Of a stretch of DNA of 20,992 nucleotides, positions 4,594-12,846 are shown one piece after another (the stretch's first letter is position 1; every line of letters begins with the position of its first letter). Source of the DNA: a virus. The notes beneath the pieces are model-generated. The model was given only the letters and a program-made list of their open reading frames with translations, was not told where the DNA came from and searched no databases. The position numbers and the translations under genes were made by a program. Location of the stretch: IMG/VR virus record IMGVR_UViG_3300020213_001058, positions 1-20,992 of that record. One strand, written 5' to 3'.

Positions 4594-7500
4594 TTAGCGC
4601 CGTAACCGCGTGGCCATGAACGTGATGTTGCTCACAGTGATGGTTCCTGTATCGACGTCCGATTTCACCGTGAGCGTATAGGCTTGAGAGCCGGCGCTAG
4701 GCGCATCAACGTCGAGCACAGGGATTGCGCCATAAATAATTTTCGCATCGTCTATACCAACAGATCCCGCAACCAGCGTTTTAATGGTTGTGCCGCCTCG
4801 TTTCACCTCAATGGTCAAACCACCGCTAGTGGCTGAGCCAACGAGCGTGAAAGCCGCTTGCAAAATCACCTTATCGCCGGCGTCGGTCGTCAAGCTCGAA
4901 AGCGTGGCGAAAGTCTGAGCCGTGGTGAGGTTGAGCGATACGGCGTTAAAGCTTTGGTCGGCCGGCTCCACCGTCACGATTTCACTAACCGTGTTGGCCG
5001 CCACTTGCGCGGCGGTCACACTACTCAATGTCGCCAGCGTGCCTTGGCCGGCGATGGCGGCGGCGGTGTTGGCGGCCGTTACGTCCGCACCAAGCGCGGC
5101 CTCAAATCCTATGTTCCAAGGAGTCAGGTCGGTTTGGTTGGGGCCAGCAAAACCAATGTAAGGTCTAGTAACGCGCAGCGTTGGCGCGGAGGCGCCAGCG
5201 AGCGCGTACACTAAAATTGTCGCGCGGCGGGCGGCGGCTGGAGCGGTTACAATTCCGCCAACCCTTTGGTATGCACCAAGGGTGCCGGCCCCAACGGCGG
5301 TTGGCGCTAGCGTGTGCGACGCGATCTCGTCGCCAGCGTAAGCGCCGGCGGCATCATAGAAGCGCGCGATCACGTATAAGTTAGAGATGTTTATTGAACC
5401 AACGTAAGCGCTCAACTCAACGCGCGTGCCGGCGGCTACCTGAAATGAGTCGTGATTGCCGGCTCCGCCCATAATGTAGATTGCGCCACCAATGGTGACG
5501 CTAGTTGCGGCGGCCTCGAAATAACGCAAAGCGTTGGCCGAGTTGGCCGTGAAGCCGCCAACGCCTGGCGAGGCGACGCCATAAGTCCAATAGCCGGCGC
5601 TAACCTGACGGAAATCACCGTCGATGATGCAGTTTTTTCCGACACCAGCGCTCACGTCATTAGAGACTTGCGCGGCGATAGTCACGCTGAGCCAACTCGT
5701 TGGCGTCGCTTCGCGCGCTGAGCTGACCGGCGTTGCGCGCACTTGGAAGGTTGCGCCGCCAACTAGGCCGTCAGCTAGCACGGCCTCGCCGGCGACATAC
5801 GGCGCGAACTTGGCGAACACTGGCGTCGTGGTGCCCAGCTTGCGCCACTCCACCAACACGCCAGCAATACTGCCGTCAGCCGCCGGCGTCCAAAGCGCTT
5901 TAATTGCTGGCGTCACCGCGCCGCCATTCGTGACAGTGACGGCGGATGCGCTAAAGCCGCTCAGCGTCGCAGCGGGGGGAAGCGGGCCGGCAACAAAGCC
6001 TTCGCTGGTTTCGTCCAGCTCATCGGTTGAAGGCGTCCAGCTAAAGCACGTGCTGGCGATTTCGCGCAAGCCAAGCTCGACCGTGCCATCCTCAAAGTGC
6101 GTGACGCGGCGCACCTCAAAAGTGACCGTTGCACCCCCGAGGTAAAGGTCAGATTGCCACTCAATCCAATCGCCAGTTTCGTGGCCCATGAACTCGGGCG
6201 GCAATGTCACTGTGGCCTGGCGTTGCATGCGCGCTTTGCGGCGCATGATTTCCGCCACGCGTTGCGCTTGCGTGCGTGAATAGACGAACGGCAATTCGCA
6301 CGTGGCCTCACGCGGCTCGCCGTCTGTGTCTATGTCGTCTTGATTGCGGCGAAGCGGGGCGCTGTGCGGTTGCCAGAGCTTGGTCGGCTCAATGTAGCGC
6401 GTGGTCACCGTGTTGCAGGATTCCTCACGCGTAAGCCAGCGGCGGAACTCGCAGCGGCCGCCTTCGATGAGATCATGGTCGGTGAATGTGAACTCAGCCG
6501 TCTTGGCGCTGCCAGGATCGGGCTGTGTCACGCCACTGCGGTCGATTAAATCGCCGGCCATGGCGCGCGCGAAATCGGCTTGCGTGTCAATCCAGCGCTC
6601 GTTGGCGAGGATGACGGCGCTCACCGTGTAACGCTTCACAGTGCCGCCGGCTTTAAGCGCCACGTCCTCGTCGCACAAATTCATAGCCGCGAGCGTGAAC
6701 GCGTCCGCCGGCGCTTCCTCTGGCGCGCGGCCTGGCCCCACCATCAATTGGCCGTTAGACCAAACGCCGCGCCGCCAGTTGAACTCACAGACTTGCGCGT
6801 TCTCTGACCATTCGTGCGTGGCGGGATCATCCCAACGGTGTGCGCCGTCGCCGCCGTCAACGGTGTCGTCAAGGCGCGGGTCGTAGCAGAGCTTGCCCTT
6901 GCTTATCCACCTGAAGCGCGGGCGGCCTTGCGGCCAGATTTTCTCGGAGAAGCGATAGGACGCCACCACGTATGACACGCCAGTGAACTTGTCATTGCTC
7001 GTCCAGCGCCCGCCGCTATTGGCGGTCAGGTAGGTTGAAGCGGTTTGCGTCGTCGTGCCGGGATACCAATAAAGGTAGAGCGACGCGGTTGAGCCTTCAT
7101 TGAAAGCCGATTGCGCGCCATTGGCGGAGAACGCGTATTCCTTGTCGTTGACAATAAAGCCGGTCAGCGAGTGGCATTGGTGGTCGGCGATGGCGACGAC
7201 GATGGTTTCCCATTCGTTGTCGGAGCCATGATTGAACGCATCCGCCAACGAGCCGCCGGTGGCGGCTTTGCCAAACAGCGCTGCGCGCGGCGTCTCACCC
7301 AATTGCATGGAGAGCACTTCAGCCTGGCGCTGGAATGTGTTTTTGAGTTTGGGCGCAAAGATTGCGCTCGCCGCCGCACTCACCGCGAAGGTGAGTGCGG
7401 TTTTGATAATCGCCACGGCCAGCGTTTTGCCGACAAACGCGGCAAGCGCGGTCACCGCCGTGGAGTAAATCGCGGCGGCGAAAGCAACGACTGGAGGCAT
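4594..7500 (-). CDS. J-like tail-tip / host-specificity protein
   Basis: The largest gene, 968 residues. The first 50 are hydrophobic and Ala-rich (AAIYSTAVTALAAFVGKTLAVAIIKTAL), probably membrane-interacting or packed inside the tip. Residues about 60-500 form the conserved tip domain, with repeated blocks such as WPQGRPRFRWISKGKLCYDPRLDD, CEFNWRRGVWSNGQLMVGPG and the RVAEIMRRKARMQRQATVTLPPEFMG hub segment, as in Phage-tail_3/GpJ proteins. About 500-620 resembles fibronectin-III (WTPAADGSIAGVLVEWRKLG, ATFQVRATPVSS). The last 350 residues are Ala/Thr/Ser/Gly-rich, with a N-x-I-x-D-G-D-F carbohydrate-binding-like start at about 626, and may bind the receptor. ATG 7500 lacks a strong Shine-Dalgarno. 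Codon use in the distal part looks more AT-rich than in its neighbours. Confidence 0.9.
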   Translation of the reverse strand: MPPVVAFAAAIYSTAVTALAAFVGKTLAVAIIKTALTFAVSAAASAIFAPKLKNTFQRQAEVLSMQLGETPRAALFGKAATGGSLADAFNHGSDNEWETIVVAIADHQCHSLTGFIVNDKEYAFSANGAQSAFNEGSTASLYLYWYPGTTTQTASTYLTANSGGRWTSNDKFTGVSYVVASYRFSEKIWPQGRPRFRWISKGKLCYDPRLDDTVDGGDGAHRWDDPATHEWSENAQVCEFNWRRGVWSNGQLMVGPGRAPEEAPADAFTLAAMNLCDEDVALKAGGTVKRYTVSAVILANERWIDTQADFARAMAGDLIDRSGVTQPDPGSAKTAEFTFTDHDLIEGGRCEFRRWLTREESCNTVTTRYIEPTKLWQPHSAPLRRNQDDIDTDGEPREATCELPFVYSRTQAQRVAEIMRRKARMQRQATVTLPPEFMGHETGDWIEWQSDLYLGGATVTFEVRRVTHFEDGTVELGLREIASTCFSWTPSTDELDETSEGFVAGPLPPAATLSGFSASAVTVTNGGAVTPAIKALWTPAADGSIAGVLVEWRKLGTTTPVFAKFAPYVAGEAVLADGLVGGATFQVRATPVSSAREATPTSWLSVTIAAQVSNDVSAGVGKNCIIDGDFRQVSAGYWTYGVASPGVGGFTANSANALRYFEAAATSVTIGGAIYIMGGAGNHDSFQVAAGTRVELSAYVGSINISNLYVIARFYDAAGAYAGDEIASHTLAPTAVGAGTLGAYQRVGGIVTAPAAARRATILVYALAGASAPTLRVTRPYIGFAGPNQTDLTPWNIGFEAALGADVTAANTAAAIAGQGTLATLSSVTAAQVAANTVSEIVTVEPADQSFNAVSLNLTTAQTFATLSSLTTDAGDKVILQAAFTLVGSATSGGLTIEVKRGGTTIKTLVAGSVGIDDAKIIYGAIPVLDVDAPSAGSQAYTLTVKSDVDTGTITVSNITFMATRLRR

Positions 7501-9268: not shown

Positions 9269-11539
9269 TTAGCCGATTTTGCGGCGGCCGTAGTTGTCGT
9301 TGACGCTGGCAACCACCAGCTCATCAAGGTTTTCTAACAGCGCTTTTTGTTGCGCTTCGAGGCGCGCCACTTGCGCGGCGTCCACGCCGCGTGCGTCGAT
9401 GGTTGGCGAGTAAACAACCGTCACGCCGCCGCCAGTGCCTTGCGCGCCAGCGGTCAGAGGCACGATGTTGCCAGAGCCGCCGTGCGGGTCGAACAGCTCA
9501 GGGCCATGCTCGCCCACAATCACCGGGCCAGATACCGGGCCGCCGATTGCGCGGCCGCCAAACAGCGAGCCAACAAAGTTGACAACGCTGCTCATGAAGC
9601 CGCCACCGCCAGCGCCGCCGTTGAGGATGCCGCTCAGCGCGTTATCAATGAGGCCCTTGAGCGCTTCCGCGATGATACGCAACGAGTCGCGCAATTCATC
9701 ACCGACGAAAACGTCCCACAGAACTTGCATAAAATCGCGCTTCAAGGTTTCGCTTATGCGCGACCAATCGCCGGTGACGAACGCTTGTTCAAGGCCGTTA
9801 TAAAGCGAGTCCGCCATGGTGTCGGCAACCTGGCCGAATTGGTCAGCCAGCGTGCGCTCAGTCTCGCCAAACATTTCAACCAGCGCCGACTCCATGTCGC
9901 GCATGCGCTCAAGGTAGGCGGCGTCAATGTCGCCGCCGCCGTCAGCGCTCAGCTCGCGCATGCGCTCAAGGTGCCGGCGGTAGGTTTCCTCCGTTTCGCG
10001 TTGGGCGCTATCAGCGACGGCGCTGCCGCCGCCGCCCGCGCCTTGTCGCTCAAGCACGCGGTTGGCGGCGTCAATCGCCGCTTGCGTGGCCGGAGCAATC
10101 ACCGGCGCGGTGACGGTGGAGGCGGGGCTCAGCGCCGCTTGCAATTCCGCAATGTTGGTGCGGATGCGTTGGAGACGTTCAATCTCTCGCTCAAGCAGCC
10201 ATTGCTGTGCGCCGCCGCCGCCAGAGGCGGCGGCGGCGAGCCAGGCGGCGTCAACGACGGCGGCTTGCTCAACCAAGCGCGCGCTTTGCTGCAAGAGCTG
10301 ACGGCGCATGTCGTTGGTGTTGTCATTGATGACGACACCACCGTTGAGGCGGTTCATCAAATTCGCCGCGCGGGTGAGCATGGTGACAAAGTCGCCGGCC
10401 AGGTTGATGGCTCTGGCGAAAAAGTCTTGCACGCCAGAGCCGCCGAGCGTGATGGCCAACTCCTGCCACTTGGCCGAAAGGTTGGCGAGCGCGCCGTTGA
10501 CGCCTTGCCAGCGCGCGGCCGCCATGGCGTTGGCGTCAGCGCCTTGCAGCGTCACGTCGCGCATGTGCACCAGCGCCTCAGCGCCTTGGTCAATCAGAAC
10601 GTTGGCCGTGCGTTGCGCGTCAGCGCCAAAGATTTGCACCACGGCGTTGGCGCGTTGCTCTTCAGTGAGGTTGATGAATGACGCTTGAAGGCGGCGCGCA
10701 ACCTCCTCCATGCCAACAAACGAGCCGTTGGCGTCATAAGCCGCGAAGTGTAGGTCTCTCATCGCGCGGCGGGCCTCAGCGGTGGGTGCGCCAAGGCGTT
10801 GGAGGAACGTCTTAAAGGACGTGCCGGCGTCAGAGCCGGATGAGAACGCCACGGCGGTCAGTGCAATGGTGGCGTTAAAGTCCTCAAGCGTGATGCCAGC
10901 GGAGGCGGCGGTGTTGCCGGCCATGCCAAGCGCTAGGCTGTAATCCTGTAGGCCAAAGGTGGTGGCGTTGATGACGCCAGCCGCGCCTTGCACGACCGAC
11001 TCCAAGTCGGCGACGCCTACGTTAAAATTCCTCATGGCGCGAACGGCAATGCTCGCACCGTCAGCCATGGTGCCGCCGGTTGCGGCCGCCAGCGTCATGG
11101 ACGCTTGAAGCGCGCCGGCTTCAAGCTCAGCAACGCTCAGGCCGGCTTTCAATAATTCCTCAGCCGCGCTAGCCGCTTCGCGTGCGCCAAAGCCTGTGGC
11201 CAGGCCAAGCTCACGAATAGTCTGCTCGGCCTGGCGCAACGCCGAACCGGTTGCGCCGCTGGCCGCTTCAATCACGCCCATGGCGGATTCAAACTCGCGC
11301 GCCTGATTGAACAGCGACGAGACGGCGGAGAACAGCGACATTCCAACGATGAGCGGGGCGAAAGCGGCCATAAGGCCGGCGAGGCCAGCCGTCATTGACG
11401 CCATGGCCGCTGAGAACCCGCGCGCGCTGTTGCGCGTGCGGGCCTCAAAAGAATTAAGCGAGCGCTCAGCGCTAGCAACGCCGGCTTGAAAGCCGGTAGG
11501 GTCGGCAAGCAGCCGCGCCTTTAAGTCAACTAGCGCCAT
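9269..11539 (-). CDS. Tail tape measure protein, TP901 type
   Basis: A 756-residue protein that sets tail length and is ejected ahead of the DNA. Residues 1-40 are helical; about 44-75 is a hydrophobic, Ala/Gly-rich stretch. The TP901 core (about 80-400) begins FNQAREFESAMGVIEAASG and includes LATGFGAREAASAAEELLKAG, the AVRAMRNFNVGVADLESVVQG block and NATIALTAVAFSSGSDAGTSFKTFLQRLG. A Gly/Ala-rich and coiled-coil section follows, with a LERMR repeat near 585-615. The C-terminus has the usual GGRAIGGPVSGPVIVGEHGPELF motif. I chose ATG 11539 with AGGGG about 7 nt upstream. An upstream extension to 11821 runs through the T domain in the wrong frame. By the rough 1.5 angstrom per residue rule, the tail would be about 110 nm. 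Confidence 0.95.
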   Translation of the reverse strand: MALVDLKARLLADPTGFQAGVASAERSLNSFEARTRNSARGFSAAMASMTAGLAGLMAAFAPLIVGMSLFSAVSSLFNQAREFESAMGVIEAASGATGSALRQAEQTIRELGLATGFGAREAASAAEELLKAGLSVAELEAGALQASMTLAAATGGTMADGASIAVRAMRNFNVGVADLESVVQGAAGVINATTFGLQDYSLALGMAGNTAASAGITLEDFNATIALTAVAFSSGSDAGTSFKTFLQRLGAPTAEARRAMRDLHFAAYDANGSFVGMEEVARRLQASFINLTEEQRANAVVQIFGADAQRTANVLIDQGAEALVHMRDVTLQGADANAMAAARWQGVNGALANLSAKWQELAITLGGSGVQDFFARAINLAGDFVTMLTRAANLMNRLNGGVVINDNTNDMRRQLLQQSARLVEQAAVVDAAWLAAAASGGGGAQQWLLEREIERLQRIRTNIAELQAALSPASTVTAPVIAPATQAAIDAANRVLERQGAGGGGSAVADSAQRETEETYRRHLERMRELSADGGGDIDAAYLERMRDMESALVEMFGETERTLADQFGQVADTMADSLYNGLEQAFVTGDWSRISETLKRDFMQVLWDVFVGDELRDSLRIIAEALKGLIDNALSGILNGGAGGGGFMSSVVNFVGSLFGGRAIGGPVSGPVIVGEHGPELFDPHGGSGNIVPLTAGAQGTGGGVTVVYSPTIDARGVDAAQVARLEAQQKALLENLDELVVASVNDNYGRRKIG

Positions 11540-11543
11540 GCGC

Positions 11544-11945
11544 TCACCCCTTTTTGGTTTTCTTGGGCGCGCGTTTGCGCGCCGGTTTTGGCTTCGCCAT
11601 TGCGGGCGGCGCTTCGCGTGCCGGAAACATGGCGCGGAAACGTCGCTGCAAATCGGTGCCGTCGCGCGCCGGCGTTTCGGCGGTGCGCGCTTCCTTGTCT
11701 TGGAATAAGAGGAAGTCGGCGGGCGAAAGCGGTTCGGTGTCTTTGCCCTTGTGAATGTTGAACAAGAGCGAAGCGACGACACCCGAGCGCAAATCGGCGC
11801 GAGCCTCGCCCCACGGCTCAAGCCGATAGAACGCCGCCCACTGTGTGAACTCCTCAGCGCTCATGCGGCGGCGTAAATCGCCAACCGTCATGCCGAGCGC
11901 TAAGGCCAGCCGATACGCAAAACGCAGCTCGGGGTCGTCTCTTAG
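11544..11945 (-). CDS. Tail assembly chaperone T part of the GT frameshift fusion
   Basis: This is the -1 frame continuation, 133 residues from CTA after the slippery site. It carries the lambda gpT / DUF4035-type block DDPELRFAYRLALALGMTVGDLRRRMSAEEF, then WAAFYRLEPWGEARADLRSGVVASLLFNI, which is the characteristic T signature. The end is basic (KPKPARKRAPKKTKKG). The ORF can be extended to a GTG at 11996, but that adds only an unstructured 17-residue overlap with G and has no clear ribosome site. It is therefore probably made only as a fusion with G. Its stop is 4 nt before the tape measure ATG. Confidence 0.82.
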   Translation of the reverse strand, partial: LRDDPELRFAYRLALALGMTVGDLRRRMSAEEFTQWAAFYRLEPWGEARADLRSGVVASLLFNIHKGKDTEPLSPADFLLFQDKEARTAETPARDGTDLQRRFRAMFPAREAPPAMAKPKPARKRAPKKTKKG

Positions 11946-12370
11946 TTTTTTATCGCATCCGCTAGCGACGATTCCAGCTTGGCGATTTTTGAACACTCGC
12001 TCAGCACGACCGCGAAGGCGTCGCGGTTCATGCCGCGCAGCAGGTCGATTTCACGCGCCACACCCTCAGGGTCAGCGGCGTTGAACATGCGCGAGCCATC
12101 CTCGTTGATGAGCATGAGGCGCACAAGGTTGAGCGCCAAAAGCTCAACGCGGTTTTCCTTGTCAGCGTTCGCGCGAGCGAAGGCTTGCAAGTCCAGGCTC
12201 GCGCCGGCGTCCATTTGACGGATGCGCAGCGAGCCGTTCAAGGCCGCAATGTGGAAAGTCTTAGTGGCGAGATTAGCGCCGCTGGCCGTGAGGGCGGCGA
12301 CGCCAAGCACGGCGGCGGAAGGTTGCGCGGCGGCCGGTTGGCGCGCCGCGCGTTTGCGTTTAGTGGTCAT
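11942..12370 (-). CDS. Tail assembly chaperone, gpG-like
   Basis: A 142-residue protein at the place of lambda gpG, between tube and tape measure. It should bind the tape measure during tail assembly. The N-terminus is basic and Ala-rich; the core (about 40-140) holds helices with EIDLLRGMNRDAFAVVLSECSKIAKLESSLAD. ATG 12370 has AGGAG 9 nt upstream; the open frame before it is unlike protein. The last codons are GCG ATA AAA AAC TAA, so a slippery heptamer A AAA AAC (11945-11951) touches the stop. A fraction of ribosomes should slip by -1 and make the 275-residue GT fusion. The family has low sequence similarity, so the call rests mainly on position and frameshift signal. Confidence 0.85.
   Translation of the reverse strand: MTTKRKRAARQPAAAQPSAAVLGVAALTASGANLATKTFHIAALNGSLRIRQMDAGASLDLQAFARANADKENRVELLALNLVRLMLINEDGSRMFNAADPEGVAREIDLLRGMNRDAFAVVLSECSKIAKLESSLADAIKN
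11945..11951 (-). promoter_or_regulatory. Slippery heptamer A AAA AAC for -1 frameshifting (G to GT)
   Basis: On the minus strand the 0 frame reads ATA AAA AAC TAA, an exact X XXY YYZ heptamer next to the G stop. The -1 frame then reads AAA CTA AGA GAC into the T domain. Starting 12 nt downstream, a 6-bp stem CCGAGC/GCTCGG (11927-11932 with 11893-11898, 28-nt loop) could act as a stimulator, though it is weak. Confidence 0.85.
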
Positions 12371-12399: not shown

Positions 12400-12846
12400 T
12401 TAGGCTTGGTCGCCCCAAGTAATCCCGCCGGTGATTTCCAGCGTGATTGTCACGTCCCACTTGCTGTTGGGCTGAGCGCTGTGATTGATGCCAAGCACCA
12501 GCGCCTTAAAGTCCATTTGGTTGCCGTCAGCGTCGCTGTTGAATTTGACGCGCACGTTGCGCACAGCGCCGGCGGCGCGGGCTTCGCGGCACTCAAGCTG
12601 GCCAACGTCCTCAAGCGCAAGGTTGATGCGCAGAGTCATTTGGCCTTCATCGGGGATGCCGGCCAGCTTCTCTTTGAACGTGGAGCCAAAGTGGGTGGCG
12701 TCGATCACGTCAGCGGAACCGCCGGGGCCGTCAACGCCAATGACCTCACCGATCACGACAAAGGTGTCAGAGCCGGGGGCGGTGGTGCCGACCAAGGTGC
12801 CGATTTCAACAATCGTGCCTTGGGTTTTTACTGCGTTAGTCGTCAT
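12400..12846 (-). CDS. Major tail tube protein
   Basis: A 148-residue tube subunit of the lambda gpV / TP901-1 major tail protein type. Typical features are the early beta strand GTIVEIGTLVGTTAPGSDTFVVIGEVIGVDGPGGSADVIDATHFGS (11-55), then FKEKLAGIPDEGQMTLRINL, and the end WDVTITLEITGGITWGDQA. The DVIDATHFGSTFKEKLAGIPDEG segment is the strongest family mark. No Ig-like C-terminal domain is added. ATG 12846 lies just after a terminator hairpin; the gap is too short for an obvious promoter. The tube protein is needed in many copies, so transcript level here matters. Confidence 0.9.
   Translation of the reverse strand: MTTNAVKTQGTIVEIGTLVGTTAPGSDTFVVIGEVIGVDGPGGSADVIDATHFGSTFKEKLAGIPDEGQMTLRINLALEDVGQLECREARAAGAVRNVRVKFNSDADGNQMDFKALVLGINHSAQPNSKWDVTITLEITGGITWGDQA

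Follow-up and report, generated by a model that had tools for sequence, protein, structure and literature searches.

The window analyzed here is a stretch of 20,992 nucleotides from an uncultivated phage (IMG/VR record IMGVR_UViG_3300020213_001058), within which a pair of overlapping genes, G and T, sits between the genes for the tail tube and the tape measure proteins, in the same order as in lambda. Elsewhere, the window carries a structural cassette of siphophage type comprising terminase, portal, protease, and an HK97-type capsid. The features of the locus are as follows:

12400..12846, minus strand: tail tube protein, the upstream neighbor (PF16460, PF16461, phrog_158)
11942..12370, minus strand: G, tail assembly chaperone, 142 aa, starting at ATG 12370 (phrog_344, AlphaFold model)
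11951-11945, minus strand: slippery heptamer A AAA AAC, read from the letters, in the phase of the G frame (codons AAA and AAC)
11944-11942, minus strand: TAA stop codon of G, read from the letters, directly abutting the heptamer
11544..11945, minus strand: T coding part in the -1 frame, 133 aa plus stop TGA (PF06223, lambda T)
11893..11932, minus strand: stem CCGAGC/GCUCGG, 6 bp, 12 nt downstream; a role as stimulator is not supported
9269..11539, minus strand: tape measure protein, the downstream neighbor, starting at ATG 11539 (PF10145, phrog_1533)

The start codon of G is preceded by AGGAG, and its product matches PHROG 344 (tail assembly chaperone) with an E-value of 7.3e-7. A Pfam search with the G protein of the window returned no match; among its relatives, PHROG 344 is matched by each of the 42 G proteins that were aligned, with PF06222 found in 10 of them and PF16459 in 9, both being tail assembly chaperone families. 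For the AlphaFold model of G (pLDDT 89.7), the top match in the PDB is the HK97 tail assembly chaperone 2ob9 (probability 1.00, E 3.9e-3; TM-score 0.65, target-normalised), at a sequence identity of about 15%, and several of the top viral structural matches of the model also carry the name tail assembly chaperone. A profile comparison against lambda G alone gives a weak match, with a probability of 12%. The T frame matches PF06223 (minor tail protein T; E 9.1e-19), and it also matches the T protein of lambda (31% identity, E 6e-7).

The minus-strand letters at the junction read GCG ATA AAA AAC TAA G. Past the heptamer, the -1 frame continues as CTA AGA GAC and remains open as far as TGA at 11546-11544, such that a -1 slip would yield a fusion of 142 + 133 = 275 residues. 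The initial annotation had described an exact A AAA AAC in the phase of G and touching its stop, with the -1 frame leading into a lambda T-type domain and a predicted fusion of this length; the letters bear out the first point, and the open frame together with the PF06223 and lambda T matches bears out the second. Across the open reading frames of the window, in-frame sites of the form X XXY YYZ number 5 per 4872 codons, two of these being A AAA AAC. The corresponding chance expectation in the G/T overlap of ~36 codons is ~0.04 for any X XXY YYZ and 0.015 for A AAA AAC, falling to ~4e-4 at the single position that abuts the stop. With so few such sites, coincidence is unlikely to account for a heptamer placed exactly at the junction. 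The second in-frame A AAA AAC lies at 5638-5632 on the minus strand, within a tail fibre J-like gene (4594-7500), and is probably a chance occurrence.

A comparison across related loci was performed, for which relatives were gathered by their T domain, with the heptamer playing no part in selection. These came from 80 loci in viral contigs, three further viral contigs, and phage and plasmid records, and near copies were dropped at 75% T identity, leaving 49 clusters with the window among them. There were no DNA-level relatives of the window among phage records, and a scan of viral contigs with the G protein as query found no relatives. Ten divergent T proteins were also aligned, but they varied too much for the alignment to serve as a scan query. 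A first scan of genome contigs gave no match, and a second found one Cupriavidus prophage, which likewise has A AAA AAC at the junction.

An in-frame X XXY YYZ is present at the junction in 45 of the 49 clusters, compared with about 2 expected from the background elsewhere in G (13 sites in 6339 codons), bearing in mind that the clusters share descent and their counts are thus those of non-independent events. A AAA AAC is the commonest of these heptamers (25 clusters), followed by G GGA AAC (7), A AAA AAA (6), and G GGA AAA (3), with C CCA AAC and A AAT TTA also occurring. Four clusters lack the pattern, and two of these (L078 and L083) carry GGGGGAA at the junction, a motif of annotated phage frameshifts that has been named “fivetwo” (PMC10885494). 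In the alignment, the frame that is conserved is that of G before the heptamer and the -1 frame after it, and not a single cluster has a stop in the -1 frame from the heptamer through the following 20 codons. The initial annotation had set as a refuting condition that close relatives lose the heptamer while T has a conserved start; the relatives show the opposite, most of them having a heptamer of this kind and no start codon for T. We consider this junction comparison to be strong evidence for frameshifting, counting against both of the other explanations considered below.

One of these explanations is that T is translated independently, from GTG 11996 or from a start within T, with the heptamer being coincidental. 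Such a GTG does exist in the T frame, where it would give a protein of 150 aa, and T has been entered as a separate gene in deposited phage records. However, there is no evident Shine–Dalgarno sequence ahead of this GTG, and a start further in would remove the conserved beginning of the T domain. Across the relatives, the stretch of the T frame that extends from its preceding stop to six codons past the heptamer contains no ATG, GTG, or TTG in 37 of 45 clusters, and the heptamers at the junction far exceed chance. We therefore regard independent translation of T as highly improbable. Runs of A are able to cause transcriptional slippage, and the site is itself a run of A, which would allow the frame to be changed by RNA polymerase with no involvement of the ribosome; but this run is of six A only, while typical transcriptional slippage sites are longer than that, and the G GGA AAC, G GGA AAA, C CCA AAC, and A AAT TTA found in relatives fit tandem tRNA slippage, leaving the polymerase a very remote candidate. 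Both ribosomal frameshifting and transcriptional slippage are covered in PMC5009743.

Our analysis thus favors a lambda-type G/GT pair of tail assembly chaperones expressed through -1 ribosomal frameshifting, to which we assign a probability of roughly 96%. This reading, which the initial annotation had also reached, is supported by homology, gene order, the predicted fold of G, and conservation of the heptamer. It draws on sequence and comparison, that is, on the heptamer, the frames, homology, gene order, and the conserved junction, from which we infer the occurrence and rate of slippage as well as the parts played by G and GT in this phage. Under the frameshifting mechanism, the majority of ribosomes would terminate at the TAA at 11944-11942 and release G, whereas in a small share the tRNA-Lys on AAA and the tRNA-Asn on AAC would slip together onto AAA AAA and read on through CTA AGA GAC into T, producing the G-T protein of 275 aa. 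If lambda is taken as the model, the tape measure protein would be bound by many copies of G and few of GT through their G part, and the T part would recruit the tail-tube protein.

The mechanism also bears on the peptide expected across the junction, which had initially been given as K-K-L-R-D. By our own reasoning, a tandem slip should yield K-N-L-R-D, because Asn would already have been inserted from AAC before the slip, and K-K-L-R-D would arise only where the P-site tRNA slips ahead of AAC decoding. Trypsin acting at the K-N-L-R-D junction would leave NLR alone. As for the rate, ribosomes of E. coli shift less readily on A AAA AAC than on A AAA AAG (PMC5009743). This counts against the frameshifting reading, as does the lack of a stimulator in the window described below, though lambda needs only a low level of frameshifting and the lower shiftiness would fit its low GT share.

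The initial annotation had pointed to a 6-bp stem beginning 12 nt downstream. The stem is present, but a role for it as stimulator is rejected, as it does not go beyond chance. A 6-bp stem occurs at a comparable place in 8% of shuffled sequences, and the downstream region of the window has no extra stability relative to shuffles (z of +1.04 over 60 nt and +0.33 over 80 nt). Over the 45 clusters, the mean fold z just downstream is -0.92 compared with -0.4 to -0.7 in the body of G, which is a small difference. Upstream of the heptamer, the window has no clear Shine–Dalgarno-like element (best energy -3.3), and an upstream stimulator of the dnaX type is likewise rejected for the window, where the element is absent. 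Among the relatives, 27 of 45 clusters carry a GGAGG-like element some 10 nt ahead of the heptamer, against 17.7 +/- 2.5 under synonymous recoding (z -2.8); this modest excess over the synonymous expectation is suggestive only. In certain tailed phages, frameshifting has been described as seemingly free of stimulatory signals (PMC5009743). It is conceivable, if rather unlikely, that what sets the G:GT ratio in this branch of chaperones is not downstream structure but other features, namely the upstream Shine–Dalgarno-like element found in many relatives and a stop located at the heptamer or one codon past it. If so, in the roughly half of clusters with a stop at or near the heptamer, termination would compete with slippage.

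The position of the signal at the very end of G, and the retention of nearly all of G in the fusion, had been singled out as special features of this locus. Neither holds up as such: of the 49 clusters, 11 have the stop abutting the heptamer and 13 more have it one codon further on, and lambda similarly keeps 134 of its 140 G codons, so that keeping nearly all of G in the fusion is normal for G/GT. The 49 clusters bring out the uniformity of this junction, with A AAA AAC as the commonest site in this branch. We also observed a Piscirickettsia plasmid (L094:977-1621) with prophage-like tail genes, in which G and T share a single open frame (214 codons) and the A run is shorter. In a related plasmid (L095), the letters are A AAA AAC TAA and G and T are in two frames. 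The single frame could reflect a real loss of frameshifting, decay of the prophage, or an error in the sequencing. Taken together, the window appears to hold a genuine but ordinary G/GT site, which leaves the known picture of the frameshift mechanism unaltered. Its practical consequence is for the annotation of this uncultivated phage, where a G-T fusion should be entered for T in place of an independent gene.

The strategy itself is known, as is the use of A AAA AAC in tail-chaperone frameshifts. The -1 frameshift of lambda G/GT is well documented (PMC5009743), and lambda resembles the window in gene order, in a homologous T, and in having its -1 shift close to the end of G, with a fusion of 279 aa. 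The two differ in that the slip of lambda takes place on G GGA AAG, at codon 134 of 140 and 15 nt ahead of the stop, whereas A AAA AAC in the window abuts the stop, and the two G proteins align only marginally. The same AAAAAAC has been described for the tape measure chaperone gp93/gp94 of Caulobacter phage phiCbK and its relatives, with GGGAAAC in Colossus (PMC3556154); these belong to a different phage group, and we liken them to the window by the description given in that paper. A AAA AAC has been tentatively proposed for the tail-chaperone pair of a Paenibacillus phage (PMC6003738). The haloarchaeal virus HCTV-2 has its g-t shift site at A_AAA_AAC (PMC5009743), again likened by description, and its host is archaeal. 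Psychrobacter phage Psymv2 and Moraxella phage Mcat30, both deposited with two separate genes and no fusion, infect other hosts and have T domains ~36-40% identical to that of the window. The G gene of Mcat30 ends in GAA AAA AAC TCA TAA, and that of Psymv2 in GCA AAA AAC TAA, with the stop adjacent to the heptamer just as in the window.
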